From assembly GCA_028370155.1 (NCBI GenBank), contig CP116670.1:1674001-1738000 (forward strand): DNA of 64,000 nt. Reading direction: 5' to 3'. Of the stretch, positions 1 through 64,000 are shown piece by piece; positions within the stretch are counted from its first letter, which is position 1, and every line of letters begins with the position of its first letter. The notes beneath the pieces were generated by a model, which saw only the letters and a program-made list of their open reading frames with translations, was not told the DNA's origin and searched no databases. The position numbers and the translations under genes were made by a program. The DNA comes from Arthrobacter sp. OVS8. Lineage in GTDB: Bacteria > Actinomycetota > Actinomycetes > Actinomycetales > Micrococcaceae.

Positions 1-893
1 GACGGCGCCGGTCTGCAGGTTGGAGGAGGGGCAGATTTCCAGGGCGATGCCCCGGTCCCGCACCCAGCTGGCCAGCTCGCCGAGGGTCACCATGCCGATG
101 TTGTCGTCGAGTTCATCGCCGTCACCGTTGGCGTCTTCGTCCGCCTCGAATTCAACGGTGACGTCCTCGGCGATGCGGACGCCGTGGCCCAGGCGCAGGG
201 CGCGTCCGTCCACCAGGGCGGACTGGATGCTTTCGAGTCCCGCGGCTTCGCCGGCGTGGACCGTGGCCGGGAAGTTGTGCTGGGCCAGGTAGGTGAAGGC
301 GTCCTTGAACCGGGACGGCAGGAAGCCGTCCTCGGCGCCGGCGATGTCGAAGCCGACGGCGCCGTTGTTGCGGTGGCGGACGGCCAGCTCGGCGATTTCC
401 TGGCCGCGTTCGGCGTGGCGCATGGCGGTGATCAGCTGGCCGACCTGGATGTCGCGGCCGGTCTCGGCGACGGCATCCACGCCGGCATCCAGACCCGCCT
501 GCACGGCCTCGACAACCTCGTCCAGGCTCAGGCCCTTCGTCAGGTGCTGTTCGGGGGCCCAGCGCACTTCACCGTAGACAACGCCGTCGTCGGCGAGGTC
601 TTCGACGAATTCCTTGGCGACGCGGAACAGCCCGTCCTTGGTCTGCATCACGGCGATGGTGTGGTCGAACGTCTCGAGGTAGCGGACCAGCGAGCCGGAG
701 TCGGCGGATTCGCGGAACCACTCCCCAGGGCGACGGGGTCCGTGGACGGCAGCGTGTGGCCCACGGCCTCGGCAAGTTCAATGATGGTGGCCGGACGGAG
801 TCCGCCGTCCAGGTGGTCGTGAAGGGAAACCTTGGGGAGGCCCTTCAGGTCGAATTCGAGGTCAGGGGCAGCGTCAAGAATTATCTCAGTCAC
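1..893 (-). CDS. add: Adenosine deaminase, 3' end outside window, frameshifted
   Basis: Converts adenosine (or deoxyadenosine) to inosine in purine salvage. The N-terminus holds the metal-binding motif SLHDHLDGG (residues about 23-31). Further on, after a frame change, come [10 protein letters not shown] (histidine-glutamate active-site motif) and [12 protein letters not shown]. The GTG start at 893 follows AAGG. The frame breaks near 723 at GGGG: one more G turns the reading into ALGEWFRES and the protein then runs open to the window edge, about 298 codons of an expected 330-380. It lies downstream of two DedA genes and close to deoA and cdd, which fits a salvage locus. Cytosolic Zn enzyme. 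Identity is firm; whether the break is real is doubtful. Confidence 0.9.
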
Positions 894-997
894 GTTCCAA
901 CCTTAGGGTCGGAGGCCGGGCAACACCAGCCGGTCCGACGCCGGACGCCCCGCGCCGGCGCCAGGCCGGGCCCGTCGGTGCCGCCCGGGCGGCGGAA

Positions 998-1827
998 TCA
1001 GGCCTCGACGTCGGCCGATGCCGCCAGCGGCCCGGCCAGCGGGGCGGTCCCGGAGCCGTGCCGGTGCCCCGGCGCAGCGGCCGTTTCCCCGCGTGCCGCG
1101 TTCTTCTGCGGGGTTTGGGTGTGCGGGGTTTGGGTGTGCGCGCCTTCGGCGTGCGGGGTTTGGGCGTGTGCCATTTTGGCTTCGGCCGCGAGCGTGGCGG
1201 CCCGGCTGGCGGCCGCGGCAGCACCCGGGTGTCGCGCCAGCGGTGCAGCCAGGTCAGCAGGTGGTCAATCACGATGCCGAGGACGATAGCAAAGGCGATG
1301 GCGATGCCCACCCCGAGCAGCGGGTGTTCGTGGACCCAGTTGCCGGCGACGATGCCGACGCCGGCCGAGTACGCCACCCACGTGATGGAGGCGAAGACGT
1401 CGAGGATGACAAAACGGCGGCGGGGGTAGGCGGTGGTGCCCGCGATCCAGTTCACGGCCACGCGTCCCACCGGGATGTAGCGGGCGGTGAAGATCAGCAT
1501 GGCGCCGCGCTTGTCGAGCTCGTAGCGCGCCCAGTTCAGGGCGCGGTGGACCTTGGGCTTGCGCATCCAGCGGAACCGTTCGACGCCGATGTGACGGCCC
1601 AGCATGTACGCCATGTTGTCCCCGGCGATGGCCCCGAGGGCTGCCGCGGCCATGACCCACCACATGTTCGGCTGGCCGGACGTGACAGAGAGGGCACCCA
1701 AGGCGACGATCAGGGTTTCGCTCGGCAGAATCGGGACGAAACCGTCGATGAAGCAGAAGATCGTAAGAATCGGATAAATCCACCATTGTCCCGCGGCATG
1801 GAGAATAGCCTCATTGATAAATTCCAC
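998..1827 (-). CDS. DedA family membrane protein (first of two), frameshifted
   Basis: DedA proteins are multi-pass membrane proteins; some members flip undecaprenyl phosphate or other lipids. Visible family features: VPILPSETLIVALGAL near residue 30, AGDNMAYMLGRHIG near 75, and RYIPVGRVAVNWIAGTT near 125, then a last hydrophobic segment near 185. The start is GTG with AGGAG upstream. The frame as given runs into a basic tail to 886. Adding one G at the CCCGGGT near 1227 instead gives an Ala/His/Thr-rich tail with repeats of HTQTP and a TGA at 998, total 276 codons. I prefer that end. The tail is unusual for DedA and comes from short GT-rich repeats in the DNA. Substrate unknown. Confidence 0.8.
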
Positions 1828-1893
1828 GCGGGCGTTGCTCCTAGGAAAGTGACGAAAAGCGCTCTTCAGTGTCCCATGACGGACAGGGATGCG

Positions 1894-2573
1894 CTACGTT
1901 CCATCAGCATAAGTCTGATGAGTTTCAGGGCTCCGTCTTTTTGGGCTCCGCCGGAGGGACCGGCTGTCCGGCGTCCCCGGGAAGCGGCCCCGGACCTTGC
2001 CGATGACGACGTCCACCAGGATGCCCAGGCCGACCGCGCAGATGACGGCGACGATGACGCCGAGCAGGTGGTTGTCTTCAAACCATTGGCCGAAGAAGAG
2101 TCCGATCGCGACAGAGTAGGCGGCCCAGAGAACTGCGGAGAGGACGGTCAGCGCGACGAAGCGTGACTGCGCGAAGTGTGTGGCGCCGGCCGTCAGGTTA
2201 ACGGCGACGCGGCCGATCGGCACAAAGCGCGCCACGAGGATCAGGGAGGCGGGCCGTTTGCGCAGTTCCGCCCCGCCCACCGGAAGGCCCGCTGCATTCG
2301 GTGGCCGCGCATCCAGCCCCAGCGCCGTGTGCCCACGCTGCGACCGATCACGTAGGCGATGTTGTCGCCGATGAAGGCACCGGCGGCGGCGGTCACGGCC
2401 AGGAGCGCCGGGTTGGGGACGTCGGCGGTGGCGGCCACGGCGGCGAGTCCCACAACCACCGATTCGCTCGGAATAGGCGGGAAGAAGCCGTCTATCACGC
2501 AGCACGCGAACACCAGGACGAGTACCCAGGGCTGCCCGGCTGCGGCCAGGATGAAGTCGTTGATTGCCTGCAC
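1894..2573 (-). CDS. DedA family membrane protein (second of two), frameshifted
   Basis: Paralogue of the neighbouring DedA gene, 226 codons when restored. It shows FPPIPSESVVVGLAAV near residue 30, IGDNIAYVIGRSVG near 72 and RFVPIGRVAVNLTAG near 125, followed by two hydrophobic segments, so the DedA core is complete. The GTG start at 2573 has AGGAAACC just before it. The frame is broken near 2270 in GGGG; one added G joins WAGAELRKRPASLILVARF. The C-terminal 30 residues are polar and basic and could belong to a further frame error. It is transcribed toward the first DedA gene with a 66-base gap, so the two may be cotranscribed. Confidence 0.8.
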
Positions 2574-2636
2574 GGTTTCCTAACAAACAACGGGAGGACG
2601 GCTGTCGTGCCAGTGTACTGCGGGGCAGGCCGCAGC

Positions 2637-2712: not shown

Positions 2713-4034
2713 CTAGGAGATGCGGTCGATGATGAGCTGCTGCGCCGGGCGGGAGCCTTCCGGGGCAACCACGACGGCGTGCTCCAGTGCGTCCCGGGCC
2801 CGCTCGAACTTCTCCGGGGTGTCCGTCAGGAGCGTCATGAGCGGCTCGCCGGCCTTGACCGTGGCGCCCGGCTTGGCGTGCATCCGCACGCCAGCGCCGG
2901 CCTGGACCTGGTCCTCCTTGCGGGCACGTCCGGCGCCGAGGCGCCAGGCCGCGACGCCGACGGCCATCGCGTCGAGCTCCACCAGCACGCCGTCGGCCGG
3001 CGCGTAGATGACTTCGGATTCGCGGGCGACCGGAAGCTTGGCGCGCGGGTCCCCGCCCTGAGCCTCGATCATCCGGTTCCAGACGTCCATGGCCCGGCCG
3101 TCGCGGAGCGCGGCCCGCGGGTCGGCGTCGCGGACGCCGGCGCAGGCCAGCATTTCCTCTGCGAGCCGGACAGTGAGCTCGACGACGTCTTCCGGTCCCC
3201 GCCGGCCAGGACCTCCACCGATTCCTCGACCTCGATGGCATTGCCGGCGGTGAGGCCCAGCGGCGTGTTCATGTTGGTGAGCAGGGCCACCGTGTTGACG
3301 CCGGCGTCCTTGCCCAGGGCCACCATGGTCTCGGCCAGTTCGCGGGCGCGTGCCTCGTCCTTCATAAAGGCGCCGGTGCCCACCTTGACGTCCAGCACCA
3401 GCGAACCGGTGCCTTCGGCGATTTTCTTGCTCATGATCGAGGAAGCGATCAGCGGGATGGCCTCCACCGTGCCGGTGACGTCCCGCAGGGCGTAGAGCTT
3501 CTTGTCCGCCGGGGCCAGTCCGGCGCCGGCGGCGCAGATGACCGCGCCCACGTCCTGAAGCTGGGCCAGCATCTCCTCGTTGCTCAGCGCCGCGCGCCAG
3601 CCCGGGATCGCTTCAAGTTTGTCCAGGGTGCCACCGGTGTGGCCGAGGCCGCGTCCGGAGAGCTGGGGCACGGCAACGCCGAAGACCGCCACCAGCGGTG
3701 CCAGCGGCAGGGTGATCTTGTCCCCCACCCCGCCGGTGGAGTGCTTGTCGGAGGTGGGCTTCACACTGCCGTCGGGGCGGCGCAGGCTGGAGAAGTCCAT
3801 CCGTTCGCCGGAGGCGATCATCGCCGCCGTCCAGCGGGAGATCTCGGCCCGGTCCATGCCGTTGAGCAGGATCGCCATGTTCAGGGCGGCCATCTGCTCG
3901 TCGGCGATGGCGCCGCGGGTGTACGCGTCGATGGTCCAGTCGATCTGGGCAGGGCTGAGGACGCCCTTGTCCCGCTTGATGCGGATGATGTCGACGGCGT
4001 CGAATGCTTCAGTGTTGCTGGTGGTCTGGGTCAC
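2713..4034 (-). CDS. deoA: Thymidine / pyrimidine-nucleoside phosphorylase, frameshifted
   Basis: Splits thymidine or other pyrimidine nucleosides with phosphate into base and (deoxy)ribose 1-phosphate. Family signatures are clear: KHSTGGVGDK (phosphate and ribose binding) and SGRGLGHTGGTLDKLE. The C-terminal alpha/beta domain (VIYAPADGVLVELDAMAVG) is present. Restored length is 440 codons, normal for the family. The frame breaks near 3200 in GGGG; one added G gives VLAGGGPEDVVELTVRLAEEM and joins both parts. The start is GTG, with GGAGG upstream, and overlaps the cdd stop by four bases (GTGA), so the two genes are translationally coupled behind the nucleoside importer. Confidence 0.93.
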
Positions 4035-4437: not shown

Positions 4438-5763
4438 TCAACCCTTGACGTACGGTATGCCGCTCGCGGCCGGCGGCCGGGAACGGCCGACGAGCCCGGC
4501 GACGGCGAACACGGTCACGAGGTACGGCAGCATCGCCATGAACTGGCTCGGCACCGGGGTGCCGATGATGGTCACAATGCTTTGCAGGTTGTCGGCGAAG
4601 CCGAACAGCAGCGCGGCGAAGAACGCCCCGATCGGGTTCCAGCGGCCCAGGATCATTGCGGCGAGGGCGATGAAGCCGCGGCCACCGGAAATCTCCTTCG
4701 TGAAGCTGTCGATCGCCACGAGCGTGAAGAACGATCCGCCGATGCCGGCGACGGCGCCGCCGAGCGTGACGTTCCAGAAGCGGGTCGCGTTGACCTTGAT
4801 GCCCAGGGTGTCGGCGGCCTGCGGGTGTTCACCGACGGAGCGGACACGCAGGCCCCACTTGGTCTTGAACAGCCCGATCCATACAACAATCACGGCGATG
4901 TACATGAGGTAGCCCACGACGGACTGCTTGAACAGGATGGGGCCGAGGACCGGAATGCTGGACAGGACCGGGATTTCGATGATGGGGAGCCGGCCGGGCG
5001 AGTTGAACATTTCCTTGTTCGCCTGCATCACGGTGCTGAACAGGAAGCCGGTGAGTCCGGAGACCAGGACGTTGAGCACCACACCGACGATGATCTGGTT
5101 GACGACGTACTTGATGCTGAACACGGCCAGCACCATCGACACGAGGGCGCCGGCAACGGCGGCCGCGAGCAGGCCCAGGTAGGGGTTGTCGGTCACGCTG
5201 GCGACAATCGCGGCCGTGAAGGCGCCGCCGAGGAGCTGGCCTTCGATGGCGATGTTCACGACGCCGGCGCGTTCGCACAGGACACCGGAAAGGGAGCCGA
5301 AGACAATCGGGACGGCGAGGGTCACGGACCCGGCGATGAGGCCGGCCAGCGAGATGCTGGGGGTCCTGGCGCCGCCGACAACCCAGATCAGGAAGGCGAT
5401 CACGAAGATGACGGTGAACACCACCGGCAGCCAGCGCGGGGTGTGCCGGTTGTTCGTTTTCCGGACCATGGAGTAGCCGGCAAGGCCGAGCAGGATCACG
5501 GAGAGCACGATGCCGGACAGGAAGGCGGGCAGTTCGATGGCGGGCAGTTGGAAGAAGTCCCCGCCGGAGGACACACCGAACTTGGCGGTCGTTTGGGGGC
5601 CCATCAGGCCAAAGAAGATGAACGCGACGACTGCCAGCACCATCAGGGTCACGGGCAGTTTCCACGTGACGGGCTTGGCGGACACAGTCTGCTTGCGCTC
5701 CGTTGCCTGCTCCGGCTTGCCCTGCGGGCCACCCGGTACGGGAGCTGTTGCTGTTGTGCTCAT
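4438..5763 (-). CDS. Nucleoside ABC importer, permease (NupQ-like)
   Basis: Membrane subunit of a BMP-type (basic membrane protein) ABC importer. The 441-residue protein has about ten hydrophobic segments and the branched-chain-permease-like core seen in NupQ/YufQ: GVLCERAGVVNIAIEGQLL near residue 180, then VGEHPQAADTLGIKVNATR near 330. The N-terminal 30 residues are Pro/Gln-rich and cytosolic. The ATG at 5763 has GGAGG upstream and overlaps the TGA of the preceding permease (ATGA). The order binding protein, ATPase, permease, permease matches Bacillus NupNOPQ, a guanosine importer. The reading frame is intact. Confidence 0.88.
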   Translation of the reverse strand: MSTTATAPVPGGPQGKPEQATERKQTVSAKPVTWKLPVTLMVLAVVAFIFFGLMGPQTTAKFGVSSGGDFFQLPAIELPAFLSGIVLSVILLGLAGYSMVRKTNNRHTPRWLPVVFTVIFVIAFLIWVVGGARTPSISLAGLIAGSVTLAVPIVFGSLSGVLCERAGVVNIAIEGQLLGGAFTAAIVASVTDNPYLGLLAAAVAGALVSMVLAVFSIKYVVNQIIVGVVLNVLVSGLTGFLFSTVMQANKEMFNSPGRLPIIEIPVLSSIPVLGPILFKQSVVGYLMYIAVIVVWIGLFKTKWGLRVRSVGEHPQAADTLGIKVNATRFWNVTLGGAVAGIGGSFFTLVAIDSFTKEISGGRGFIALAAMILGRWNPIGAFFAALLFGFADNLQSIVTIIGTPVPSQFMAMLPYLVTVFAVAGLVGRSRPPAASGIPYVKG

Positions 5764-7161
5764 GCTGCACCTCCGGTGGTTGCTGCCTTCTGGGTTTTGC
5801 CGGCGGTTGCGGCCTTCTTCTTGCGCGGGTTCATTCCGAAGATCGCCCGGACCAGCGGCGGCGCCGCGATGAACAGCACGATGAGTGACTGGACCACCAG
5901 CACGATGTCGATCGGGGTGCCGGTCTGGATCTGCATCTGGACCGCACCGGCGCGGAAGGCGCCGAACAGGATGCCGGCGGCGAACGTGCCCCACGGCGTC
6001 GAACGTCCCAGCAGTGCCACGGTGATGGCATCAAAGCCGTATGTTGCCGCGACGCCGTCGGTCAGGACCTTTTCGGTGCCCGCCACCTGCGCGACGCCGG
6101 CCAGGCCGGCCAGGCCGCCGGCCAGGGTCATCACCAGGATGGTGGCGCGGGGAACGTTGATTCCGGCGGTCAGTGCTGCCTTGGGGTTGGCACCGACGGC
6201 GCGGAATTCGAAACCGATCGTGGACCGGTTCAGCAGCCACGAGACAAACACTGTTGCCGCGATGGCCAGCAGGAATCCTAGGTGCAGCCGGTACTGGCTG
6301 CCGAAGATCTGCGGATACAGGGCAGACGCTTCCAGGATCGGGGAAATCGGGGTGGTCTCGCCCGGGCGCTGGAACAAGTCCGTGTCCAGCAGGTACCGCA
6401 GGAAGTAGAGGGCGATGTAGTTGAACATGATGGTCACGATGACCTCATGGGCTCCCGTTCTCGCCTTGAGCACGCCGACGAGGCCGCCCCAGACGGCACC
6501 GCCGATGATGCCTGCGATCAGGACGAGCAGCAGGTGGAGCCCCACCGGCAGGTCCAGCGCGAAGCCCACCCAGGCGGCCAGGATGCCGGCCATGATGATC
6601 TGGCCCTGCGCACCGATGTTGAACAGGCCCGCACGGAAGGCCAGTGCGACGCCGAGGCCGGCGGTGATCAGCGGGGTGGCGATGGTGAGGGTTTCCATCA
6701 GCGGGGCGAACTGTCCGGCAACGCCGCTGGCCCGGGGTTGAAGACCGCTCCCTGGAATAGCGCGACGTAGGAGCCGGTGGCCGCAGACCAGACCGCGGAG
6801 AGGAAGTCGGTGGGCCGGGCGAAGAAGTAGCTCGACGTCGCCGCGACCACCTTGTCCGTGGCGGCAATGAGCAGTCCGCCAAGGAACAGGGCAAGGAGGA
6901 CGGCCAGGATGGTGACGATGCCGTTGCCCGTGAAGATCTTGCGCAGCACCGAATCCGGTTCCTCAGCGCCGGGGATCTTCCCGCTCTGGGCGGAGACCGG
7001 GACAGCCGAGGGCCGCATCGCTCCGCCGGCGGTGTCCAGCGTGGTGACAAAGTCGGCGTCGTCCTCCAGGGGTCCTGAGGCGCCGCGTCCGGGGACTGGG
7101 TTGTGGGAATCCGCTCCGGATCCGGTTCAGCCGAGTGTCGCGGCTGGTTGTTCTCACTCAT
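5760..7161 (-). CDS. Nucleoside ABC importer, permease (NupP-like), frameshifted
   Basis: Second membrane subunit of the importer. The polar N-terminus (MSENNQPRHSAEPDPERIP) is followed by a hydrophobic segment near residue 65 and then the permease core with TIATPLITAGLGVALAFRAG and LFNIGAQGQIIMAGILAAW. Two breaks: near 7072 a missing C in GACCCC (restores APQDPLEDDADFVTTLD) and near 6735 a missing C in CAACCCCGG (restores VFNPRASGVAGQFAPLMET). Restored length is 467 codons. The start is ATG with GGAG upstream and lies inside the end of the ATPase gene. Stop and next start overlap as ATGA, so the operon is tightly coupled. Confidence 0.87.
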
Positions 7162-8820
7162 GGTCGTCTCCTACAGCGCCGGAGCTGGACTCCTGCACGG
7201 GGTGGGCGGCGGGCGCCTGGTTCGATTCTTTGGTTGCGGCGGCGTTTTCGGCAGCGTCTGCGGCGGCCGCTTCCCGGGATCCCGGGCCGGCTGCCTGCTT
7301 GCGGCGTCGGCGAGGGCGTCCTGCGGGGACAGGCCCGCCATCATCAGGCCGAGGACATCGCGTCCGGTGCCGGCCGGGACGATCCCGACGAGTTTGCCCT
7401 TGTAGAGCACGGCGATCCGGTCGGCGAGTTCGATCACCTCGTCCAGTTCGGTGGAGACGATCATCACGGGGGTGCCGTGGTCTCGCTCGGCCACGATGCG
7501 CTTGTGCAGGAACTCGATGGATCCGACGTCCACGCCGCGGGTGGGCTGGGAGGCGATGAAGAGCCGCAGCGGCCGGGAGAGTTCCCGGGCCATCACCACT
7601 TTCTGCTGGTTGCCGCCGGACAGCGTGCCGGCCGCGAGCGATCCTGACGGGGTGCGCACGTCGAACTCTTCGATCCGGGTCTTGGCGTTCTCCAGGACCT
7701 TGGCCGGGCTCATGCTGATGCCCTTGGCGAACGGGGCCTTGTCATAACGGTCCAGGATCAGGTTCTCGGCGATCGAGAAGGTGCCGATCAGGCCGTCGAC
7801 CGAGCGGTCCTCGGGCACGAAGCCGACGCCGGCGTTGAGGACCTCCTTGACGCTGCGGCCCAGGAGTTCTTCGCCGTCCAGCAGGATCGATCCCTGGGCG
7901 CGTTCATGGAGGCCCAGGATGGCCTCGGTCAGTTCCGTCTGGCCGTTGCCCTGGACGCCAGCGACGGCGAGGATCTCGCCGCGTGCGATGTCGAAGCTGA
8001 TGCCGTCCACCACGTGCTGGCCGCTCGGGGCGATCACGGTGAGGTCCTTGACTTGGAAGGTGGTCTCCTGGGGCTTGGCCGGGGCCTTGTCCAGGGTCAG
8101 GTTCACGGCCCGGCCCACCATCAAGGAGGCCAGCTCCGTCGTCGAGGCGCCGGGGTCGGCGCTGCCGACCACTTTGCCGCGCCGGATCACCGTGATGGTG
8201 TCCGAGACGGCTTTGACCTCACGGAGCTTGTGCGAAATGAAGACGATTGAGGTGCCGTGGCTCTTGAGCTGGCGCATGATGTCCAGCAGCTCATCGGTAT
8301 CCTGCGGGGTCAGCACGGCCGTGGGCTCATCCAGGATGAGCACCTTGGCGTCGCGGACCAGCGCCTTGATGATTTCCACGCGCTGCTGCACACCGACCGG
8401 GAGGTCCTCGACCATCGCATCGGGGTCGACGTCGAAGCCGTACCGGTCCGAGATCTCCTTGATCTTCCGGCGGGTGTCGTCTAGGTTCAGGAATCCGCCG
8501 GTCTTGGTGGCCTCCGCCCCGAGGGCGACGTTTTCGGCCACGGTGAATACCGGGACCAGCATGAAGTGCTGGTGCACCATGCCGATGCCGGCGGCCATGG
8601 CGTCGCCCGGGCCGCGGAAAGTGACGGGTTTGTCGTCGATGAGGATCTGGCCCTCGGTGGGCTCGTAGAGTCCGTACAGGACGTTCATCAGCGTGGACTT
8701 ACCCGCGCCGTTCTCGCCGAGCAGACAATGAATCTGCCCGGGTTCAACAACCACATCAATGTGATCGTTGGCTACCAGGGAGCCGAAGCGTTTGGTGATC
8801 CCCTTGAGTTCAAGTTTCAA
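7154..8820 (-). CDS. Nucleoside ABC importer, duplicated ATPase (NupO-like), frameshifted
   Basis: ATP-binding subunit with two nucleotide-binding halves, as in sugar and nucleoside importers of the RbsA/NupO type. First half: Walker [10 protein letters not shown] (near residue 37), Walker [14 protein letters not shown]. Second half: [17 protein letters not shown] and a degenerate Walker A region GVQGNGQTEL. I prefer TTG at 8820 (LKLELKGITKRFG) as start. The frame as given ends at 7171 in a Pro/Arg tail. One added G near 7288 gives an Ala-rich acidic tail ending at 7154, overlapping the next permease start by eight bases, total 555 codons. A stem-loop separates it from the upstream binding-protein gene. 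Confidence 0.9.
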
Positions 8821-8987: not shown

Positions 8988-10096
8988 TTAGACCTTGGGG
9001 CTGGCTGCGGATTCAACCTTCAGCTTGCCGTCGGCGATGTCCTTCTTGATCTGATCCAGCTCGGACTTCAGTTCCGCCGGAACCTGAGAGTCCAGGTCGT
9101 GGAACGGAGCCAGCTGGACGCCTTCGTTCGCGAGGGTGCCGACGTACGGCGTGTTGTCGAAGTTGCCGTCCTTGTCTTCCTTCACAACGGTGTAAACAGC
9201 CTCGCCCATCAGCTTCATGACGGAGGTGAGCATGATGTCCTTGTAATCCGGAGCCGTGAGGAAGCCGTCGGAGTCAACCCAGATGAGTTTGACGTCCTTG
9301 CCTGCTGCCTTGGCTTCCTTCAGGGCCGCGCCGGCGCCCTTGCCAACCGGACCGGCGACGGGCATCACGATATCCGCGCCCTGGTCCAGGAAGTTCTGGG
9401 TGAACTGCTTGCCCTTGTCCTGCTTTTCGAAGTCACCGGTGAAGGAGCCGTCCTGCTTGGCCTTGTCCCAGCCAAGAACCTTGACGTCCTTGCCCTTCTG
9501 CTCGTTGTAGTACTTGACGCCGTCGGCGTAGCCGTCCATGAAGATGGTGACCGTGGGGATCTTGATGCCGCCGAACGTGGCGACCGTTCCGGTCTTGGTG
9601 GTGCCGGCGGCGAGGTAGCCCGCCAGGAAGGCAGCCTGGGCCGTGTCGTAGATGATCGGCTTGACGTTGCTGATCGGGGTCTCGTAGCCGAAGTCGACGA
9701 TGGCGAAGTGGCTCTCCGGGTTGGCCGTGGCCTGGGCCTTGGTGGCGTCGCCGAGCAGGAAGCCCACCGTGACGGTCAGGTCGCAGCCTGCGGTGACCAT
9801 GGCGCGGAGGTTGGGCTCGAAGTCGTTGTTCGTCTTGGACTCGGCCTCGTTGACCTTGATGCCCAGATCCTGCTCAGCCTTCTTCAGTCCCTCGTAGGAG
9901 GACTGGTTGAACGACTGGTCGTCGAATCCACCCGAGTCGGAAACGATGCAGCCTGAGTAGTCGCTGGCCGAGGGGCCGCGCTGCTGCCGGTCGTCGGGGC
10001 GGCACCGCAGCCGGTCAGCAGAAGTGCAGCCGCACCGGCGGTGGCGACTCCGGCCATCGAACCGCGCTTGAAGGTTGCACGCAGAGAGTTCTTCAA
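8988..10096 (-). CDS. BMP family nucleoside-binding lipoprotein, frameshifted
   Basis: Extracellular solute-binding lipoprotein of the BMP/Med/TmpC family, the receptor for the nucleoside importer encoded downstream. The N-terminus is a lipoprotein signal peptide with lipobox LLTGC near residue 30. Family features follow: SDSGGFDDQSFNQSSYEG (in the restored frame), VTVGFLLGDA, HFAIVDFGY, TAQAAFLAGYLAA, and IVMPVAGPVGKGAG. The start is TTG with GGAGG five bases upstream. The frame breaks near 9982, where one base is missing; restored length is 369 codons. It is the first gene of the importer operon. The 282-base upstream gap holds its promoter, which I could not place with confidence, and a terminator at its far end. 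Confidence 0.9.
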
Positions 10097-11980: not shown

Positions 11981-12428
11981 TCAGCGGGAGGCGTGCAGGG
12001 CGGCGGTGAGCCGTCCGAGGGTCTCCCGAAGCTGTTCGAGTTCGGCGGGCGAGAGCCCGGCGGCGTCGGCCAGCCGCTGCGGGATGGCGGACGCCCGCGT
12101 GCTGAGTGCCGTGCCGGCGTCGGTCAGGAAAACCTCAACCCGGCGCTCGTCCTCGGCGGACCGGCGCCGTTCCACGAGGCCCAGCGTCTCGAGCCGCTTG
12201 AGCAGCGGGGAGAGTGTGCCGGAGTCGAGTCCCAGCTCCTCCCCAGTTCGCGGACGCTGCGCGGCTGGTCTTCCCAGAGCACCAGCATGACGAGGTACTG
12301 CGGGTACGTCAGGCCGAGTTCGTCGAGGGTGGGCCGGTAAGCCGCCGTCGCGGCCCTCGAGGCCGAATACATGGCGAAGCACAGCTGCTTGTCGAGTCGG
12401 GGGCGTTGTCACGGGGAGCATCGGTCAC
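11981..12428 (-). CDS. ohrR: OhrR-type MarR-family repressor, frameshifted
   Basis: Peroxide-sensing repressor expected to control ohr. In the restored frame the N-terminus reads LDKQLCFAMYSASRA, which carries the single peroxide-sensing Cys of OhrR, followed by LGLTYPQYLVMLVLWE, the winged-helix region ELGLDSGTLSPLLKRLE and ERRRSAEDERRVEVFLT. Two breaks: near 12393 (missing C in GCCCCCGA) and near 12240 (missing G or A within the Glu-Leu-Gly stretch). Restored length is 149 residues. The start is a GTG at 12428 and no good ribosome site is seen. An operator-like palindrome lies 15 bases upstream. Confidence 0.87.
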
Positions 12429-12442
12429 ATGAATACGATAGC

Positions 12443-12464
12443 GCACAATTAAGTTGTGCACAAC
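12443..12464. promoter_or_regulatory. Operator-like palindromes upstream of ohrR
   Basis: GCACAATTAAGTTGTGC (12443-12459) is a palindrome with 6-bp arms, and GTTGTGCACAAC (12453-12464) is a perfect 12-bp palindrome that overlaps it. They lie 15-36 bases before the ohrR start. MarR/OhrR proteins bind such AT-centred palindromes, so this is probably the autoregulatory site. I found no equally clear copy before ohr. Confidence 0.6.
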
Positions 12465-12586: not shown

Positions 12587-13785
12587 TTAGAGGTCGCGGA
12601 TGGTGCGCAGGGCTGCGGCCGTGAGGACCTGCACGCCCAGGCCCAGGGCACGTTCGTCCAGGATGTAGTCGCCGCGGTGCAGGTCGTACTCTTCGCCGCC
12701 GGGGGTCTTGGTGCCGAGGCGCATCATGGCGCCGGGGAGGTCCGCAAGGAACCAGGCGAAGTCCTCGCCGCCCATGGACTGCGGGGTGAGGACCACGGCG
12801 CCTTCGCCGATCTCGGCACGGGCGGCGGCTTCGATCAGCGCGGTCTCGTGTTCGGAGTTCACCACGGGAGGCACGCCGCGGGTGTGTTCCAGGTGCACGT
12901 CGACGCCGTACGGTGCGGCGATCTGCTGCACCACCTCGTCGAGGATCTTGCCGGCGCTGTGCCAGGCGTCGCGGTCCAGGCAGCGCATGGTGCCGGCCAT
13001 GTAGCCGCTGGCCGGGATCGCGTTGGGGGCGGAGCCGGCGGAAATGTGGCCCCAGACGACGGAGACGCCGCTGCGGACGTCAACGCGGCGGGACAGGACC
13101 GCCGGGACGTTGACCGCGATCTGGGCGAGGGCGAACACGAGCTCCTCGGTCAGGTGTGGGCGGGAGGTGTGGCCGCCGCGGCCGGTCAGCTCGATCTTGA
13201 TGGTGTCCGAGGCGGAGGTGATGGCGCCGATCCGGGTGCCGATCTTTCCCACGTCGATGCGGGGGTCGCAGTGCAGCGCCAGGATCCGGGGAACCCCTCG
13301 AGGACTCCCTGTTCGATGCAGCTCTGGGCGCCGCCGGGCATGGTTTCCTCGGCCGGCTGGAAGATGATCCGCACGGAAGCGCGCAGTGGCGACTCCTCGT
13401 GCATCCGCTGCAGGACCAGGGCCGCGCCGAGCATGGTGGCGGTGTGGACATCGTGGCCGCAGGCGTGGGTGACGCCGTGGTTCTTCGAGGCGAACGGCAG
13501 CCCGGTCTCCTCGATGATGGGCAGGGCGTCGATGTCGCCGCGCAGGGCGGTGGCGATCGGGCCGTCACCGATATCAACCGTCAGGCCCGTCCCCTCGAGG
13601 CGCCGGGGTTTGAGGCCGGCTTCCTCGAGTCGCTGGACGAGCTTGTCCGTGGTGCGGAATTCCTTGAAGGAGAGCTCCGGGTGTGCGTGCAGGTCCCGCC
13701 GGAAGGCGATCAGCTCCGGCAGGAGAGGCTCGAGCCACGGCCCCACCAATGTGGTGGGCTCAGCTTCAGTAGAGTAGTTGCGCAC
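12587..13785 (-). CDS. M20 family amidohydrolase / peptidase, frameshifted
   Basis: Metal-dependent hydrolase of the M20D group (hippurate or N-acyl amino acid amidohydrolases). Visible: RRDLHAHPELSFKE near residue 29, LRGDIDALPI near 82, HACGHDVHTATMLGAA near 106, QPAEETMPGGAQ near 143, GRGGHTSRPH near 200, and MGGEDFAWFL near the C-terminus, covering the metal ligands and dimerisation domain. The frame breaks near 13290 in CCCC; one added C gives GFPRILALHCDP. Restored length is 399 residues. The GTG start has no ribosome site, but a TAGAGT -10 box stands six bases before it, which suggests a leaderless mRNA. Substrate unknown. Confidence 0.88.
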
Positions 13786-15442: not shown

Positions 15443-15822
15443 GTGCCGACAAAACCAGCTGGCACCTTGTACCGCGGCCGTGAAGGCATGTGGTCCTGGG
15501 TTGGACATCGCATTACCGGTGTAGTGATCTTTTTCTTCTTGTTGGTCCATGTGCTGGACACCTCACTGGTGCGTGTGTCCCCCGAGGCCTACACCGCCGT
15601 GATCGGTGCCTACAAGAACCCCTGATGGCCCTGGGTGAAACGGGCCTTGTCGCAGCGATCGTGTTCCACGCCTTCAACGGCCTGCGGATCATCGCCGTCG
15701 ACTTCTGGAAGAAGGGCGCCAAGTACCAGCGCCAGATGCTGTGGGCGGTGCTCATTCTCTGGGCAGTCGTCATGGTGGGCTTCTCCATCCGCCACCTTTC
15801 CCTCGCCCTTGGAGGTCACTAG
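15443..15822 (+). CDS. sdhC: Succinate dehydrogenase cytochrome b556 subunit, frameshifted
   Basis: Membrane anchor of complex II that binds haem and quinone. It begins VPTKPAGTLYRGREGMWSWV, then shows SHRITG-like GHRITGVVIFFFLLVHVLDT near residue 26 and AAIVFHAFNGLRIIAVDFW near 71, with three hydrophobic segments. The GTG start has GGGAGG upstream. The frame breaks near 15622 in AACCCCTGA; one added C gives KNPLMALGET and a total of 126 residues. It is the first gene of sdhCDAB, and sdhD starts two bases after its stop. Confidence 0.93.
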
Positions 15823-21637: not shown

Positions 21638-23582
<1,945 letters not shown>

Positions 23583-27484: not shown

Positions 27485-27534
27485 GGGTCGGATCGTTCCG
27501 TCTCCGAGACTAGGCGTGGCCGGAGCTGCCTTCT

Positions 27535-51200: not shown

Positions 51201-51734
51201 GCCTGATCAATCGGCGGTCCCGTAGCGCCGGGCGCAACAGCCCCGTCTGCGCCTGGCCGGCGCGGTCCTCGGCATGGCGCTTGCCACCGCCTCCCTTGCC
51301 AGCTGTTCTGCCGCCCCGGATCTGGACCGCAATGCCGCCCGGCAGCTGCAATCCAAGGTCCTTGCCGTGACCGGGGCCGCCGCCGCCAATGATCCGGCCG
51401 CCTCGCTGAAGCATCTTGACGCTTTTGTGCTGGAACTGGACGAGGCGGCTGCCCGCGGGGAGGTGTCCTTCAGACGGCACCAGAGCATCAGCAAGTCCGT
51501 CGACGCTGTCCGGGCGGACCTCAAGGCCCGGCAGGCCGAAGCCGCCCGGGTTGCCGCCGAGCAGAAAGCCAAGGCCGCCGCAGACAAGGCCGCGGCCGAC
51601 AAGGCGGCAGCAGACAAAGCGGCGGCGGCAGCAGCCGCACAGGCCGCCGCAGCCGCTGCGGCTCCCCGCCCGCCGTCGCGCCCGCGCCGGCCGACAGAGG
51701 CAAGTCCAAGGGCAAGGGCAAGGACGACGACTGA
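51197..51734 (+). CDS. Lipoprotein with helical Ala/Lys repeats, frameshifted
   Basis: No family recognised. The restored N-terminus is a lipoprotein signal (RLRLAGAVLGMALATASLAS with lipobox LASC near residue 38). A domain of about 80 residues follows (LQSKVLAVTGAAAANDPAAS, LDAFVLELDEAAARGEVSF), then a repetitive helix with ADKAAADKAAADKAAA, a Pro/Ala linker and a terminal GKSKGKGKDDD. Two breaks near 51243 and 51667, both missing C, give 179 residues. It overlaps the kinase stop (ATGA), so it is cotranscribed and could be a wall-side partner or sensor of that kinase; that is inference. Confidence 0.65.
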
Positions 51735-51839: not shown

Positions 51840-51869
51840 GCCTGTCGCCGGCGAAACGGCGTGGCGGTA

Positions 51870-54089
<2,220 letters not shown>

Positions 54090-54336: not shown

Positions 54337-55337
54337 ATGAGAACACCCAAAACTCTGGCCACCAGCCTTTTGAGCCTCTCGGCCGCAGCACTGCTGGCAC
54401 TGAGCGCTGCGGGCGCAGCCAGCGCAGCCCCGGCACCCGGCAAGGCACCGACGGAGACGTCGGGGGTCAGCAGCCACACTGTCGTTGAGACCGGCGGAGC
54501 GGAGTACTGGACAGCGGAGCGGATGCGCAACGCAATCCCCGGTGATGTGCTGGCCGAAAAGGCCAAGCAGCGGAGCGCCAACTCCACGGCCGTCCTCAAC
54601 CGGCCGGCCGAAGCCGGGGCGCCCAGCACGGTGGAGGCGCAGAGCCCGCTGCGCCAGGCCAAGGAAGCCCAGCCCAAGGCGAACGCCAGCGAGACCCCGG
54701 TCAAGCACATCGGCAAGGTCTTCTTCACCCTGGGCGGCGCCAACTACGTCTGCTCGGGCAACTCGGTCTCCTCCACGAACAAGAGCACCGTCTCCACGGC
54801 CGGCCACTGCCTCAACGAGGGCCCGGGCGCGTTCGCCACCAAGTTCACGTTCGTGCCCGCCTACCTCAACGGCTCCGCGCCCTACGGCATGTGGACGGCC
54901 AAGTCCCTCCACGCCCCCACCCAGTGGAGCTCCGGCGGCGACATGACGTACGACACCGGCTTCGCGGTCATGAACACCCTCAACGGCCAGACCCTCTCGG
55001 ATGTTGTGGGGTCCTCGGGCGTACAGTTCAACGCCGCCCGCGGCCTCACCTACAAGGCCTTCGGCTACCCGCGGCACGGCCCTTCGACGGCGAGTCCCTC
55101 AAGAGCTGCAGCGGCACCGCCACCAATGACCCGTACAACCCGCAGTTCAACAGCCAGGGCATCCCGTGCAACATGACCGGCGGGTCCTCGGGCGGTCCGT
55201 GGTTCATCGGTTCCAGCTCCACCGGCTACCAGAACTCGGTCAACAGCTACGGCTACGGCAGCAAGTCCACCACGATGTACGGCCCGTACTGGGGCTCCGT
55301 CATCCAGCAGGCCTACAGCACCGCGGCCGCTTCCTAA
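54337..55337 (+). CDS. Secreted S1-family (V8 / trypsin-like) serine protease, frameshifted
   Basis: Exported serine protease of 333 residues when restored. A Sec signal peptide (residues 1-30, ending AGAASA) is followed by a propeptide-like stretch to about 125, then the catalytic domain: HIGKVFFTLGGANYVCSGNS, the His in VSTAGHCLNEGPG near 150, the Asp in MTYDTGFAVM near 205, and the Ser in MTGGSSGGPWFIGS near 290. Cys pairs around the His and Ser are kept. The break near 55081 is a missing C in GGCCCTTCG; one added C gives HGPFDGESLKSCSG. Substrate specificity is unknown. Confidence 0.87.
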
Positions 55338-55683: not shown

Positions 55684-57366
55684 AGTGGAAGAAGTGCCGG
55701 GCGCCGGTGAAGTACATCGTGATGCCCGCGGCGTTGGCTGCGGCGATGACTTCGTCGTCCCGGACCGAGCCGCCGGGCTGGACGACGGCGCGGACGCCGG
55801 CGTCGATCAGGATCTGCAGTCCGTCGGCGAACGGGAAGAACGCGTCCGACGCCGCGACGGCACCGCGGGCACGTTCCGGCGACGCGGCCGCGTCGGCGTT
55901 GGAGGCACCGCCCGCACCGTCCACGTCCGAGTCCACCGAGACGCCCAGCGAGTTGGCCCGCTCGACGGCAAGCTTGCAGGAATCGAGCCGGTTGACCTGG
56001 CCCATGCCGATGCCCACGGCGGCGCCATCCGACGCCAGCAGGATGGCGTTGGATTTGGCCGCGCGGCAGGCGGTCCAGGCGAACGCGAGGTCGGCCAGGG
56101 TGCCGGCGTCGGCGGCGTCACCGGCGGCGAGGGTCCAGTTGGCGGGATTGTCGCCGTCGGCGTCCACCCGGTCCGACATCTGCACCAGCACGCCGCCGGA
56201 GACCTGGCGGATTTCCGAGGGTAGCGGCCGTAGCCCTCGGGCAGGGCGAGGAGACGGATGTTCTTCTTCTTGGACAGGATCTCCACGGCCTCGTCCTCGA
56301 AGCCGGGGGCGATGACCACCTCGGTGAAGATGCCCGCGACGGTCCGGGCCATGCCGGCGGTGACCGTGCGGTTCGCCGCGATCACGCCGCCGAACGCGGA
56401 GACCGGGTCGCAGGCGTGGGCCTTGGCGTGCGCGTCGGCGATGGGATCCGCCGCGGAGGCCGAGCCCACGGCCACGCCGCAGGGGTTGGCGTGCTTGATG
56501 ATCGCGACGGCCGGCTCGGCGAAGTCGAAGGCAGCGCGCAGGGCGGCGTCGGCGTCGACGAAATTGTTGTAGCTCATGGCCTTGCCGTGCAGTTGGTCGG
56601 CCTGCGCGATGCCGGCCGGGGCGGCCTTGTCCACGTAGAGGGCGGCCTGCTGGTGCGGGTTTTCGCCGTAACGGAGCACCTCGGAGCGCTCCAGGGCCAG
56701 CCCGGCGTACGCGGGCCAGTCGATGACGCCGTCGCCGTCCTCGTCGAGGAACTGGCTCGCGGTCCAACTGGCCACGGCCGTGTCATAGGTCGCCGTGTGT
56801 GCGAAGGCCTTGGCGGCCAGCCGGCGTCGGGTCTTCAGGTCGAAGCCGCCGGAAGCGGCGGCAGCCACGACGTCGTGGTACGAGGACGGGTCCACCACAA
56901 TCGCGACGGCGGCGTGGTTCTTCGCGGCGGAGCGCACCATCGCGGGGCCTCCGATGTCGATCTGCTCGACGACGTCGTCCTGCGCGGCGCCCGACTTCAC
57001 CGTTTCCACGAACGGGTAGAGGTTCACGACGACGAGGTCGAACGGCTCGATGTCCATCGACGCGAGCGTGTCCATGTGGGCCGGGACGCGGCGGTCGGCG
57101 AGGATGCCGCCGTGGACGCGCGGGTGGAGGGTCTTGACGCGGCCGTCCAGCATTTCCGGGGAGCCGGTGACTTCCTCGACTTCCTGCACCGGGATACCGG
57201 CGGCGGCGATCTTCTTGGCGGTGGAGCCGGTGGAGACGATCTTGACGCCGGCGTCGTGCAGGCCCCTCGCGAGCTCCTCCAGACCGGTCTTGTCGTAGAC
57301 CGAAATAAGGGCCCTGCGGATGGGAACGCGGTCGATGGATACACGGTCAAGCTGCGTGAAGCTCAC
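55682..57366 (-). CDS. purH: Bifunctional AICAR transformylase / IMP cyclohydrolase, frameshifted
   Basis: Last two steps of de novo IMP synthesis. The N-terminal MGS-like cyclohydrolase domain shows [20 protein letters not shown] near residue 17, [10 protein letters not shown] near 44 and [19 protein letters not shown] near 74. The C-terminal transformylase domain has [13 protein letters not shown] near 235, [13 protein letters not shown] near 290, and [19 protein letters not shown] near the end. The break near 56221 is a missing C in TACCCTCGG; one added C gives [16 protein letters not shown]. Restored length is 561 residues. GTG start. It uses formyl-THF made by folD-glyA, 27 kb away. Confidence 0.94.
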
Positions 57367-57514
57367 AAAAGTCTCCGTCTTATATCGCGGCGGGGCCGCG
57401 GGTGGTGGGGATGCGGCCAGTTTATCGCGTCAGCGCGCCGCCCTTCCCGCGCGCCGGAGTATGAAGCGCACCGCACCCCCGCGCGGCCACGTAGAGTTTT
57501 CCCAGGAGGCTGAG

Positions 57515-58866
57515 ATGAATACGTACACCACTGTGCCCAGCGGCGAACAGGTGGTCCAGGAACTGCCCTGGCGCTGGAAGGTGCAGGGCCGGATCTTCCT
57601 GATCGGCGGCCTGGGCTTTATGTTCGATGCCTGGGACGTCACGCTCAACGGCATCCTGATTCCGCTGCTGTCCAAGCACTGGTCCCTCAGCCCGGGCGAG
57701 GCCGCCTGGATCGGCGCCTCGAACCTGATCGGCATGGCCCTGGGCGCCTTCATCTGGGGCACCATCGCGGACACGATCGGGCGCAAAAGGCCTTCACCGC
57801 CACGTTGCTGATCTTCTCGCTCTTCACCGTGCTGGGCGCCTTCTCCCCCGATTTCCTCTGGTTCGTCGCGTTCCGCTTTATGGCCGGCTTCGGCCTGGGC
57901 GGCTGCATCCCGGTGGACTACGCGCTGGTGGGCGAGTTCACGCCCCGCAAGCAGCGCGGCAAGGTCCTCACCGCGATGGACGGCTGGTGGCCGATCGGCG
58001 CCGCGCTGTGCGGCTTCGTGTCCGCCGGACTCGTGGCCCTCTACGGCGACTGGCGGCTGACCATGCTGGTCATGGTGCTGCCGGCCCTGCTGGTGTTCTG
58101 GGTCCGCCGCAGCGTCCCCGAATCCCCGCTGTTCCTGATCCGCAAGGGCCGCCGGGACGAGGCCGCCAAGGTGATCGATGACCTCGTCGCCGCGACCGGG
58201 GCGGAACCCCGCGTCTACAGCCTCCCCGAGGCGCAGGACGCGCCCCGGCTCTCCGCCGGCAGCGCCTGGACCCAGCTGCGCCTGCTCTGGCAGTACGACT
58301 GGAAAATCACGACGGCGGCCTGGTCCCTGTTCTTCAGCATCCTGCTGGTGTACTACCTGTCGCTGACGTGGATGCCGCGGATCCTGATCGGCGCCGGCTT
58401 CGAGGAGTACAAGGCGTTCCTCACCACCGCCTCCATGGCCGCCGTCGGGCTCCTCGGGGTGGTGGTGGCGGCCCTGCTGGTGGAACGCGTGGGCCGGAAG
58501 TGGATCCTGGCGATCACCGGCCCGCTGTCCGCGCTGACCCTGGTGATCGTCGCGATCGTGGTGGACATCCCGACGGCGGCCGTGTTCTGGCTGCTGGTGT
58601 TCGGCTTTGTGGTGCAGGTGGCCATCCCGGTGCTCTACGCCTATGTCTCCGAGCTGTATCCGACGGAACTGCGCGGCTCGGGCTTCGGCTGGGCCTCGAC
58701 GTTTTCCCGGATCGGCGCCGGCTTCGGCCCGCTGGTGTTCGCGGCGTTCCTCTGGCCGGAGCTGGGCCTCGCGACGTCGTTCGCGATTGCCGGTGTGCTG
58801 GTGCTGCTGAGCGTGCTGTGGATGGCGTTCTTCGCGCCCGAGACCAAGCAGCGCCACCTCGCCTAG
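57515..58866 (+). CDS. MFS transporter (sugar / aromatic acid porter type), frameshifted
   Basis: Permease of 450 residues with 12 hydrophobic segments. The motif between helices 2 and 3 is GTIADTIGRKKAF (residues about 85-97) in the restored frame; its repeat is LLVERVGRKWIL near 325. GGCIPVDYALVGEFTPRKQR near 127 and SELYPTELRGSGFGWASTFS near 385 fit the SP/AAHS groups. The break near 57789 is a missing A in GCAAAAGG, the one clear A-run error. The ATG at 57515 has AGGAGG upstream. Substrate unknown. It is divergent from purH and convergent with purN. Confidence 0.87.
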
Positions 58867-60045: not shown

Positions 60046-61379
60046 TCACAGGGACGCCGGCTCCAGGTCCGCTTCGCGCAGTTTCTGCTGGCGTTCCAGC
60101 CACGGCCCGGCGGCGTAGCCGATCACGACGCCGATCCCCACTTCCGTGGCCACGAACAGTGCCGTCCGGAGCGGGTCGGGCCCGATGTCCGTGAGCCTTC
60201 CGATGCCGGCGGAGCCGCGGGCCAGCCAGGCCAGTCCTGCCGCGAGCAGCCCGGCCACGCCGCCCACCATCACGCCGAGCGCCAGGGTGGACACCGTGGC
60301 GGTGAACCAGCGGGCACGGATCTTGATGGAGAGCCATTCGTCGAAGTGGTTTTCGCCCTCGCGCAGGAACCACCAGCCGGCCAGGACCCCGGCGAGGACC
60401 GGCACCACCAGTGCCGCGGCACCAAAGTCCGGCGACCCGGCCGGCAGCGCCGCAAACACCGGGATCGACGGCAGCGGCCCGACGGCGGTGCCGAGCGCCC
60501 CGGCCTGGGAGCCGACGCCGAGGGCGAAGCCCGCGCCGGAGGTCCACGCGAGCGCGAACACGGCCAGGTTGGGCAGGAAGCCGAGCTGCGCGATGGTGAG
60601 CACGGCACCGCCCCAGGCTCCGGCGTCGAGCGCTTCATAAACGGCGATCACGAGGTTCCAGTGGATGAACAAGGTGGCGGCGAGGAGAACGCAGGACATC
60701 GCCAGGCTGGCCATCAGCGCCACGAAGCCGGCTTTGATCGCGGACACGAGGTAGGAGCCGGCCCAGCGCGAGTGCTGGCTGGTGCGGGAGAGCCAGGCGA
60801 CGGCGTCGACGCCGATCAGCCGGCTCCAGGAGCCGGCCTCGCGGCGGGCGCCGATCACCATGCCGAGTGCGAACGGGATCAGCGGGATAAGGGCGGCGGA
60901 CCAGAGGCCCACGCCGACGTCGTGCGTGCGGCAGACAAATCCCGTGGTCAGGCCGAAGGCGGCGTACATCAGCCACGAACCGAGCAGCGCCTGCCAGAGC
61001 TGGTCGGTGTAGGACGCCCGGGCCAGCCGCCGCCCGCGCGCCAGGCTAGCAGGAACGGGATGAGCGTCAGCCCGAGCGGGAAGAGCGAAAGGACGCCGGT
61101 TTCGGGCTGGGCCGCGGATCCGGCGCCGGCGGTGTCCAGCAGCAGCGGAACGCCGTGGATCAGCAGCCAGGCCTGGCCGGCCAGGCGGGCCATGGCGTCG
61201 GGCGCCCCGTTCAGGAAACCGGCGGTGGCCCACACCGCCAGGATCGGAGCGGCCACCACCAGGGCGGAGATGAAGGCTGCCTGCGCGGACTCGATGGCTC
61301 CCTGCAGCCACAACGGCATCGGAAGTCCACGTTCCCCGGTCTGATCAGCGCGCAGTTTCATCGTGTTCCATCGTGCCAT
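60046..61379 (-). CDS. PerM-like (DUF6350) membrane protein, frameshifted
   Basis: Large membrane protein of 444 codons with at least ten hydrophobic segments, matching the DUF6350 family by layout and place: in Mycobacterium the family member PerM (Rv0955), a division-linked persistence protein, lies beside purN and purH. Markers here: MPLWLQGAIESAQAAFISAL near residue 20, GLTLIPFLLAWRAGRRLARA near 105 across the break, and GAWGGAVLTIAQLGFLPNLA. The break near 61037 is a missing G in GCGGGCGG. ATG at 61379, or at 61361 as an alternative. The family assignment is from pattern and context, not from a search. Confidence 0.72.
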
Positions 61380-62130: not shown

Positions 62131-62136
62131 CGTTGT

Positions 62137-62417: not shown

Positions 62418-62529
62418 AGATCGCTGCGACCGCGCGACCGGGGACGCCCCGCGCCCTCCCCATCGACTCGGCGCCCCGCCCTGAAACCGCACTCCTGTAA
62501 ATATTTTCACTTTACTTAGGACAGAATCA

Positions 62530-62574
62530 TTGACCTGCTAAAAATCTTCACTATAGTTATGTGAGTCAGCTCAC
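62530..62574 (+). promoter_or_regulatory. Promoter and possible operator of the XRE-cupin gene
   Basis: TTGACC (62530-62535) and TATAGT (62552-62557), 16 bases apart, stand in a locally AT-rich stretch. GTGAGTCAGCTCAC (62561-62574) just after is a 5-bp-arm palindrome and could be an autoregulatory site. Confidence 0.65.
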
Positions 62575-62591
62575 CAAGTGAAGGACATCGA

Positions 62592-63198
62592 ATGACCGCC
62601 GAGAGCACCACGAGCAGTGCCCCCTTGCCACCAGCGCCCTGCTGGCCACGGTCGGCAACAAGGTGCGCTCCATGCGCAAGGAAAAGGGCATGACGCTCGC
62701 CAAGCTCTCGGATATCACGGGCCTCAGCCCGGCAATCGTCAGCCAGATTGAACGCGGCCTGGCGAATCCGTCCTTCACCACCCTGGCGCAACTGGCCCAC
62801 GGCCTGGACATCCCGGTCGGGAAATTCTTCATCGGCCAGGAAGAAACCAGGTCCCCGTGGTCCGCAAGGCCGATCGGCGCAACCTGAAAGGCGTCACCAA
62901 GAAATCCGTGGGCGAGGCAGTCTACGAACTGCTCACGCCCGACCTCAACGGCGCCTTGGAAGCCCAATGGATCGTCAGCCCGCCCGGCCATGACACCAGC
63001 GCCACCCCTTTCCGCCACAGCGGCGAGGAATTCGGCATCATCCTCTCCGGCCGGAAAGACATCTTCCTGGACGGCGAGTGCTACACGCTCGAGGAAGGCG
63101 ATTCCATCACCTTTTCCTCGGACACCCCGCACTGGTACAAGAACAGCTACGAAGAGGTATGCGTAGCGATCTGGGTTAACGCACCTCACGCGTGGTAG
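62592..63198 (+). CDS. XRE-cupin transcriptional regulator, frameshifted
   Basis: Regulator with an N-terminal helix-turn-helix (MRSMRKEKGMTLAKLSDITG, LSPAIVSQIERGLANPSFTT; residues about 25-80) and a C-terminal cupin (FRHSGEEFGIILSGRKDIFL, LEEGDSITFSSDTPHWYKN). This layout is typical of repressors sensing small metabolites, often for polyamine, amino acid or organic acid catabolism. Two breaks near 62623 (missing C in GCCCCCTTG) and 62848 (missing G in CCAGGTCC) give 202 residues. Start ATG at 62592; a ribosome site AAGGAC lies upstream. The MHS transporter follows on the same strand. Confidence 0.85.
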
Positions 63199-63359
63199 CG
63201 GCGCCGACCCCAAGCGGCCCCTATCGTTCCCCACTGTCGCGGTCCCCCACGGCCCGCTGACAGTCCTTGCCACCTTCGCAGCCACCGCCCCTTAACCCCG
63301 GACGGCGATGCGTCATACCCTCCCTCGCCTCCCCATGGCGTCAGCGTAAGGACAATTCC

Positions 63360-64000
63360 ATGCTCGACACCCCCATGCTCGACAACACCCGGCCAGACAG
63401 CGCAGTCACGGCCCCGGACTCCAACAAAAACACAAAAGACACCAAGAAATTCACCCCGAGGTCCGCAAAGGCCTCCTAGGCCTCGGCCTCGGCAACGCCC
63501 TGGAATGGTACGACTGGATGGTCTTCGGCCTCCTCTCCGCCTTCATCGGCCCCAACTTCTTCCCCAACACCGATCCCCTCTCCGCCACGCTGAACGCCCT
63601 CGCCGTGTTCGCCGTCGGCTTCGCGTTCCGGCCGCTGGGCGGCATCATGCTCGGCACCCTCGCGGACCGGATCGGTCGGCGCCGCGTGATGCTGATGTCG
63701 ATCATGCTGATGGCGGCACCACCCTGGTCATCGCCGTCTGCCCCAGCTACGAACAGATCGGCGTCTGGGCCGGCATCATCCTCGTGGCCTGCCGCATCCT
63801 GCAGGGCATCTCCACCGGCATCGAAGCCCCGCTCTCCACCTCCCACGCCGTGGAGCTGGTGCCGGACGGCCGCGAAGGCTACGTCGCCGGCATCATGTCC
63901 TTCTACGTCAACATCGGCATCCTGCTCGCCTCGCTGGTCAGCTTCCTCTGCAGCCTCACCCTCGGCGGCGCCGTGATGGCCGAATGGGGCTGGCGTGTGC
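63360..64000 (+). CDS. MHS-type MFS transporter, 3' end outside window, frameshifted
   Basis: Metabolite:H+ symporter family (citrate, ketoglutarate, proline/betaine or shikimate porters). Markers: LGLGLGNALEWYDWMVFGLL near residue 42 (family helix 1), GFAFRPLGGIMLGTLADRIG near 88 and RRVMLMSIMLMA, then CRILQGISTGIEAPLSTSHA. A polar N-terminus of 38 residues precedes. Two breaks: near 63455 (missing C in ACCCCGAGG) and near 63719 (missing base at GGCACC). The ATG at 63360 has AAGGA upstream. It runs off the window. The XRE-cupin gene upstream is the likely regulator. Substrate unknown. Confidence 0.83.

Follow-up and report, generated by a model that had tools for sequence, protein, structure and literature searches.

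Frameshifted genes in the window

The DNA examined here is a 64,000-base window of Arthrobacter sp. OVS8 (bases 1674001-1738000 of its single 4,175,013-base contig; the genome is labelled G000), in which many genes, from sdhA and purH to a Ser/Thr protein kinase gene, are interrupted by frameshifts (Table 1). From the letters alone, the original prediction had counted about 53 breaks, spread over 35 of 58 genes and almost all in need of one added base, and our own count came very close to it. Breaks were counted with our own protein-to-DNA aligner, which charges for frameshifts, and the called proteins of related genomes served as queries. Proteins of G046 gave 53 shifts in 34 of 56 genes (48 requiring one added base, four requiring two and one requiring removal of a base), those of G153 gave 48 shifts in 31 of 50 genes and those of G132 gave 39 shifts in 26 of 45 genes. 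Four G046-based shifts (27537, 31701, 31742 and 48339), which lay in a divergent gene end or in doubtful small genes and showed no clean nucleotide gap, were dropped. The retained set comprises 49 breaks in 32 of 54 genes: 46 lack one base, three lack two, and none calls for removal of a base. This gene-level test covers the window up to about 62.0 kb. The stretch of about 62.0-64.0 kb was checked by shared one-base gaps. Besides the three gaps listed in Table 1, a fourth one lies near 62619-62623, where G046 and G088 each have one extra base, though not at exactly the same place.

Most of the retained breaks (44 of 49) recur with G153 or G132 proteins. Those at 12403 and 20875 are absent with these proteins and have a matching gap against G088, while those at 34077, 36251 and 36643 were found with G046 alone. 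A break lies within 8 bases of each of the ten positions and three two-base cases named beforehand, and the genes expected to be hit (sdhA, sdhC, trpS, purH and folD, as well as a kinase gene with five breaks) were confirmed by name. The A-run case foreseen near 57789 was found at 57785 (AAAA versus AAAAA). The breaks had also been placed nearly all in short G or C runs, and this was borne out in part. By the smallest edit that restores agreement with a relative, 34 of 49 breaks lengthen a G/C run to at least four bases (35 with the one that lengthens an A run to five). Only when one extra substitution is allowed do 44 of 49 breaks lie at G/C runs, under a generous rule that picks the longest run and comes without a null expectation. 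Some breaks are located in shorter runs, of two or three bases, and a few are drop-outs in GGCCGGC-like sequence.

The five relatives used for comparison (G088, G046, G153, G069 and G132) have completeness estimates of 99 to 100; G000, a single 4.18 Mb contig, is estimated at 79.72% completeness and 5.65% contamination. A same-genus search with a test piece matched 197 of 198 genomes, the closest two being G088 (98% identity) and G046 (97%). Comparison with a close relative had been proposed as a check, and in it the window breaks proved private among the relatives tested. The controls contained two shifts in one of 54 genes (G046 with G153 proteins), three in two of 54 genes (G153 with G046 proteins) and four in three of 51 genes (G132 with G046 proteins). 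A simple gene caller predicted 67 genes for the window, their median length being 221 residues and the coding share 76%; the stretches of the five relatives gave 59 to 63 genes, medians of 315 to 336 residues and coding shares of 85 to 88%.

Table 1. Interrupted genes in the window (window coordinates; one base lacking at each break unless remarked)
Gene or region	Position	Strand	Breaks near	Remark
Adenosine deaminase	1..893	-	727	cut by window start
VTT-domain membrane protein	1001..1827	-	1226
DedA-like	1928..2573	-	1991, 2275	NCBIfam matches below cut-off
	2716..4034	-	3199	not scanned for name
ABC transporter permease-like	5763..7161	-	6732, 7067
ABC transporter ATP-binding	7157..8820	-	7271
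Substrate-binding protein-like	8991..10057	-	9969
MarR-family regulator	11984..12446	-	12245, 12403	12403: G046 and G088, not G153/G132
Amidohydrolase	12590..13746	-	13292
sdhC-like succinate dehydrogenase cytochrome b subunit	15524..15819	+	15624
sdhA	16448..18251	+	17325, 17369
	19135..19894	+	19373, 19723	not scanned for name
YhjD-like	19863..21062	-	20301, 20875	20301: two bases; below cut-off
trpS	21641..22730	-	21653, 21931
Exodeoxyribonuclease III	22754..23582	-	23189, 23248
folD	27513..28451	-	27616	doubtful second shift near 27537 not retained
Methyltransferase-domain	31011..31419	+	31251	two bases
Hexapeptide-repeat transferase	32134..32646	+	32297, 32344, 32547
FAD/NAD-binding-like	32667..34365	-	34077	two bases; G046 only; weak matches
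PmfR-like regulator	36037..37765	+	36251, 36643	G046 only; weak matches
ROK-family	38981..39996	+	39174
GguA-type sugar ABC transporter ATP-binding	40130..41682	+	40320
	43073..44162	+	43203, 43220	not scanned for name
FtsX/MacB-type permease	44415..45808	+	45649
ABC transporter ATP-binding	45814..46517	+	46292
GFO/IDH/MocA oxidoreductase	46716..47782	+	47482
Ser/Thr protein kinase	49964..51197	+	50019, 50234, 50749, 50937, 51155
	51197..51728	+	51243, 51665	FIMAH match below cut-off
	54370..55334	+	55073	no Pfam match
purH	55685..57366	-	56216
MFS transporter	57461..58863	+	57786	sole A-run case among 49
	60049..61319	-	61036	GCCGGC-type drop-out; no NCBIfam match
Gap-tested region	62619..63713		62852, 63453, 63713	one-base gaps against both near relatives

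Shortening of runs depends on length and context and extends outside genes

The fate of runs was scored over 428 kb, made up of the 228 kb that surround the window plus a 200 kb part of the same chromosome at 0.70-0.90 Mb. Runs of G088 that G046 or G153 match, flanks included, were taken as the truth; 42,783 runs were scored and 5,526 with changed flanks were set aside. Altogether, 184 of the scored runs are shortened in G000 and none is lengthened. For G/C runs of two to seven bases, the shortened fractions are 21/27119, 10/5039, 37/987, 96/232, 9/9 and 1/1, which corresponds to 0.2%, 3.8% and 41% at lengths of three, four and five and to all nine runs at length six. A/T runs of two to six bases are shortened in 1/8336, 3/867, 1/171, 4/20 and 1/2 cases. 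With G046 as the focal genome, none was shortened among 1332, 244, 44 and 2 G/C runs of three to six bases, and with G088 none among 1338, 246, 44 and 2; the more distant G153 gave two shortened G/C runs of three and one lengthened. G/C runs of exactly six are present in G000 at 0.4 per 100 kb in the 228 kb around the window and at 0.8 per 100 kb in 20 pooled stretches elsewhere, versus 12.7, 14.5 and 16.3 per 100 kb in three relatives, and G/C runs of at least six are some 20-fold rarer than in the relatives.

The odds of shortening also vary with the neighbouring bases. Runs of five C (G runs on the other strand included) are shortened in 39 of 46 cases when preceded by CT, in 7 of 8 after TT and 8 of 10 after AA, and in 2 of 26 after GG and 5 of 38 after CG. 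Runs of four C are shortened in 24 of 147 cases when T follows and in 2 of 213 when A follows. Outside runs of at least four bases, drop-outs occur at 4 of 54 CTCCCT sites (control G046, 0/19) and at 8 of 256 GGCCGGC sites (control G046, 0/74); three other GC palindromes have 1 in 888.

Losses are found in noncoding DNA as well. Deletions against both near relatives have densities of 1.12 per kb within genes and 3.57 per kb outside them, compared with 0.08 and 0.73 in the control G046; for insertions the densities are 0.06 and 0.59 per kb, compared with 0.08 and 0.80. Therefore, the excess is in deletions alone, both inside and outside genes; over the control it comes to about 1.2 deletions per kb (196 kb). 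Runs of five are shortened alike in genes (60/140) and in noncoding DNA (8/22). As for ribosomal RNA (rRNA), the five 16S copies of G000 measure 1522, 1522, 1522, 1520 and 1519 bases, and their alignment has five one-base gap columns as well as some substitutions. Relative to the Rfam consensus, the copy at 3052402 is one base short in CCUGGGGAGUACGG and one in GAUGUUGGGUUAAG, the latter loss being common to three of the five copies. Genuine differences between the rRNA operons are present too, one copy having many spacer substitutions.

The main cluster of insertions here, at 49.5-49.8 kb, belongs to a tandem array upstream of the kinase gene (window 49472-49829; 55-base unit, 6.5 copies), in which five units are one base longer than in the relatives. 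In G046 and G088 the array has 53- or 54-base units in 3.5 and 4.5 copies. Each of the seven copies in G000 carries an identical 26-base inverted repeat that occurs nowhere else in that genome with up to two mismatches. RNA of two units folds only mildly better than shuffled sequences, 7 of 200 of which were equally good.

Origin of the frameshifts

The breaks had been attributed to consensus error and not to pseudogenes. We come to the same reading, and hold it to be practically certain that they are consensus-sequence errors of the assembly, on the grounds of the rise with run length, the zero counts in the near-relative controls, the losses in noncoding DNA and rRNA, the genome-wide occurrence and the intact conservation of the broken genes. 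Median amino-acid identity to G046 is 0.974 in the 34 broken genes versus 0.976 in the 22 intact ones (p = 0.21), and no in-frame stop turns up when the 56 genes are read through with G046 proteins. In such a scheme, the basecaller or the consensus step would undercount G/C homopolymers, so that four bases would sometimes be read as three, five as four nearly half the time, and six as five or four in all scored cases. Neighbouring bases would shift the odds of contraction, as current-based (nanopore) reading gives, and presumably no accurate short reads were applied to mend the consensus. In the organism itself, the genes are most likely intact.

Genuine mass pseudogenization, for example in a mutator strain or a reduced symbiont, would agree with the shifts standing in the deposited sequence and being private to G000 among the relatives tested, and the authentic pseudogenes of reduced bacterial genomes resemble the window in the sheer number of frameshifted genes. 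Unlike those pseudogenes, however, the 53 shifts come with no nonsense codon (G046 proteins) and no relaxed conservation, and the run changes are one-sided and length-dependent. Central genes (sdhA, trpS, purH and folD) and rRNA are struck as well, and drift would not produce a pattern in which nine of nine G/C six-base runs are shortened and none of the 42,783 runs is lengthened; we regard this possibility as barely credible. Even less credence can be given to the idea that the short runs are genuine and that the frames are rescued in the cell by transcriptional slippage or ribosomal frameshifting. Homopolymer slippage is known from other bacteria and the breaks are indeed located at runs, but the same losses occur in noncoding DNA and rRNA, breaks are also found in GGCCGGC-like sequence and in runs of only two or three bases, and the near relatives keep the full-length runs.

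Several observations weigh against consensus error as the explanation. Among runs of four, those in noncoding DNA are hit more frequently (11/108) than those in genes (21/648), and some of the noncoding losses may therefore be real. One in-frame stop remains with G153 proteins and two with G132 proteins, and each control pair also leaves one. The contraction had been called one-sided, which stands as far as the scored runs are concerned, but 14 insertions of one or two bases, versus 254 deletions of that size, are common to both near relatives in the 228 kb (five of these insertions lie in the tandem array), and 14 of the 49 breaks are not plain contractions of runs of at least four by the smallest edit. 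Furthermore, private frame-breaking insertions and deletions (scored against three or more relatives, in coding and noncoding DNA alike) numbered 25 in the window (24 deletions), 4 in G088, 1 in G046, 23 in G153, 19 in G069 and 11 in G132. By this count G153 and G069 are nearly as bad as the window, with one-base insertions outnumbering one-base deletions in these two genomes. The count was discarded as too blunt, because relatives place gaps differently and intergenic variation gets counted, and was replaced by the protein-level test and the run test. Lastly, G/C runs that lack one base can occur in PacBio assemblies as well (PMC11649196), which makes the choice of platform less firm.

As for the platform, the sequence was very probably obtained by nanopore sequencing, presumably of native DNA, with an older chemistry and without short-read polishing. 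According to PMC8486125, homopolymers are well read up to length 5 (4 in high-GC bacteria) and longer ones tend to be underestimated, A/T runs are read better than C/G runs, and adjacent bases have a strong influence on the signal. PMC9262707 states that insertions and deletions in homopolymers of R9.4.1 nanopore consensus sequences often give frameshifts in gene calls, and in PMC6591954 Dcm sites come first and homopolymer length second among the consensus errors of the test genome. Compared with nanopore under-calling as described in these papers, we see no difference in kind: deletions dominate, they rise from a run length of about four or five, they are worse in G/C and in high-GC genomes, they depend on neighbouring bases and they break gene calls. 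Unlike errors of single nanopore reads, it is the consensus that loses 96 of 232 five-base and nine of nine six-base G/C runs here. The dependence of run collapse on neighbouring bases is expected of nanopore reading, though not unique to it. The same artefact in an unpolished or thinly covered PacBio continuous long read (CLR) consensus is improbable but deserves some weight, as G/C runs of 4 to 10 that are one base short are reported for PacBio-derived assemblies in PMC11649196. That study counts only 3 to 8 of them in each genome, versus the excess per kb found here, and the strong neighbour-base dependence fits current-based reading better, neither point being decisive. A literature search on nanopore Arthrobacter genomes and frameshifts returned no title concerning this genome.

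Modification of the DNA is an unlikely source of the drop-outs. The minor drop-out class resembles the errors at Dcm sites described in PMC6591954 in that it clusters in one context, GGCCGGC, and differs from them in that only about 3 in 100 such sites are struck. Drop-outs affect 7 of 336 GCCGGC sites (8 of 474 in a second count), every example lying within GGCCGGC; they affect 0 of 29 GGCCGGCC sites, the context not being a clean palindrome, and CCAGG is not enriched in them (1/1191). The idea of a palindromic site behind the drop-outs outside runs was rejected on the GGCCGGC-only examples, the absence at GGCCGGCC and the approximately 3% of sites struck. It is also very doubtful that the fingerprint of losses (CT before C5, CTCCCT, GGCCGGC) is partly a trace of native-DNA modification that would betray the target of a methyltransferase. 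The sole C5-methyltransferase match in G000 found by a C5-type search (L218, G000:C1:1803695-1804719) is split over two overlapping frames, so this gene looks frameshifted too. Compared with PDB entries, it partially matches DNMT1 and the HaeIII and HhaI methylases, which has no bearing on its target.

Further observations and use of the genome sequence

Elsewhere in G000, a triosephosphate isomerase-family gene (L002 and L004, G000:C1:746843-747594) is split into adjacent parts covering profile positions 153-243 and 1-151; two other matches to this family lie in open frames. Two genomes of the same genus, G030 and G193, consist of one and two contigs with completeness of only 92 and 78, and may share the same sequencing fault. 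Within the window, a 792-residue open reading frame (ORF) at 51861-54239 (+) runs antisense to a 739-residue gene at 51873-54089 (-), the DNA of which matches genes on plasmids that carry the annotation NADP-dependent isocitrate dehydrogenase. A search with the translated antisense ORF gave 79 loci, including ones in Kitasatospora, Corynebacterium and Pseudomonas; most simply, these matches reflect the conservation and high GC content of the sense gene.

The frameshifts described here represent an ordinary assembly-quality fault, a known kind of sequencing error and not biology. If the whole 4.18 Mb were alike, extrapolation of the excess would give about 5,000 excess deletions. In protein databases, such shifts would show up as genes that are truncated or absent. 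As G000 is the representative of its species in a one-genome-per-species set, its completeness of 79.72% could pass for genuine gene loss, and the sequence is an unsafe basis for claims that this organism has lost genes, that its proteins are truncated or that its runs undergo phase variation.

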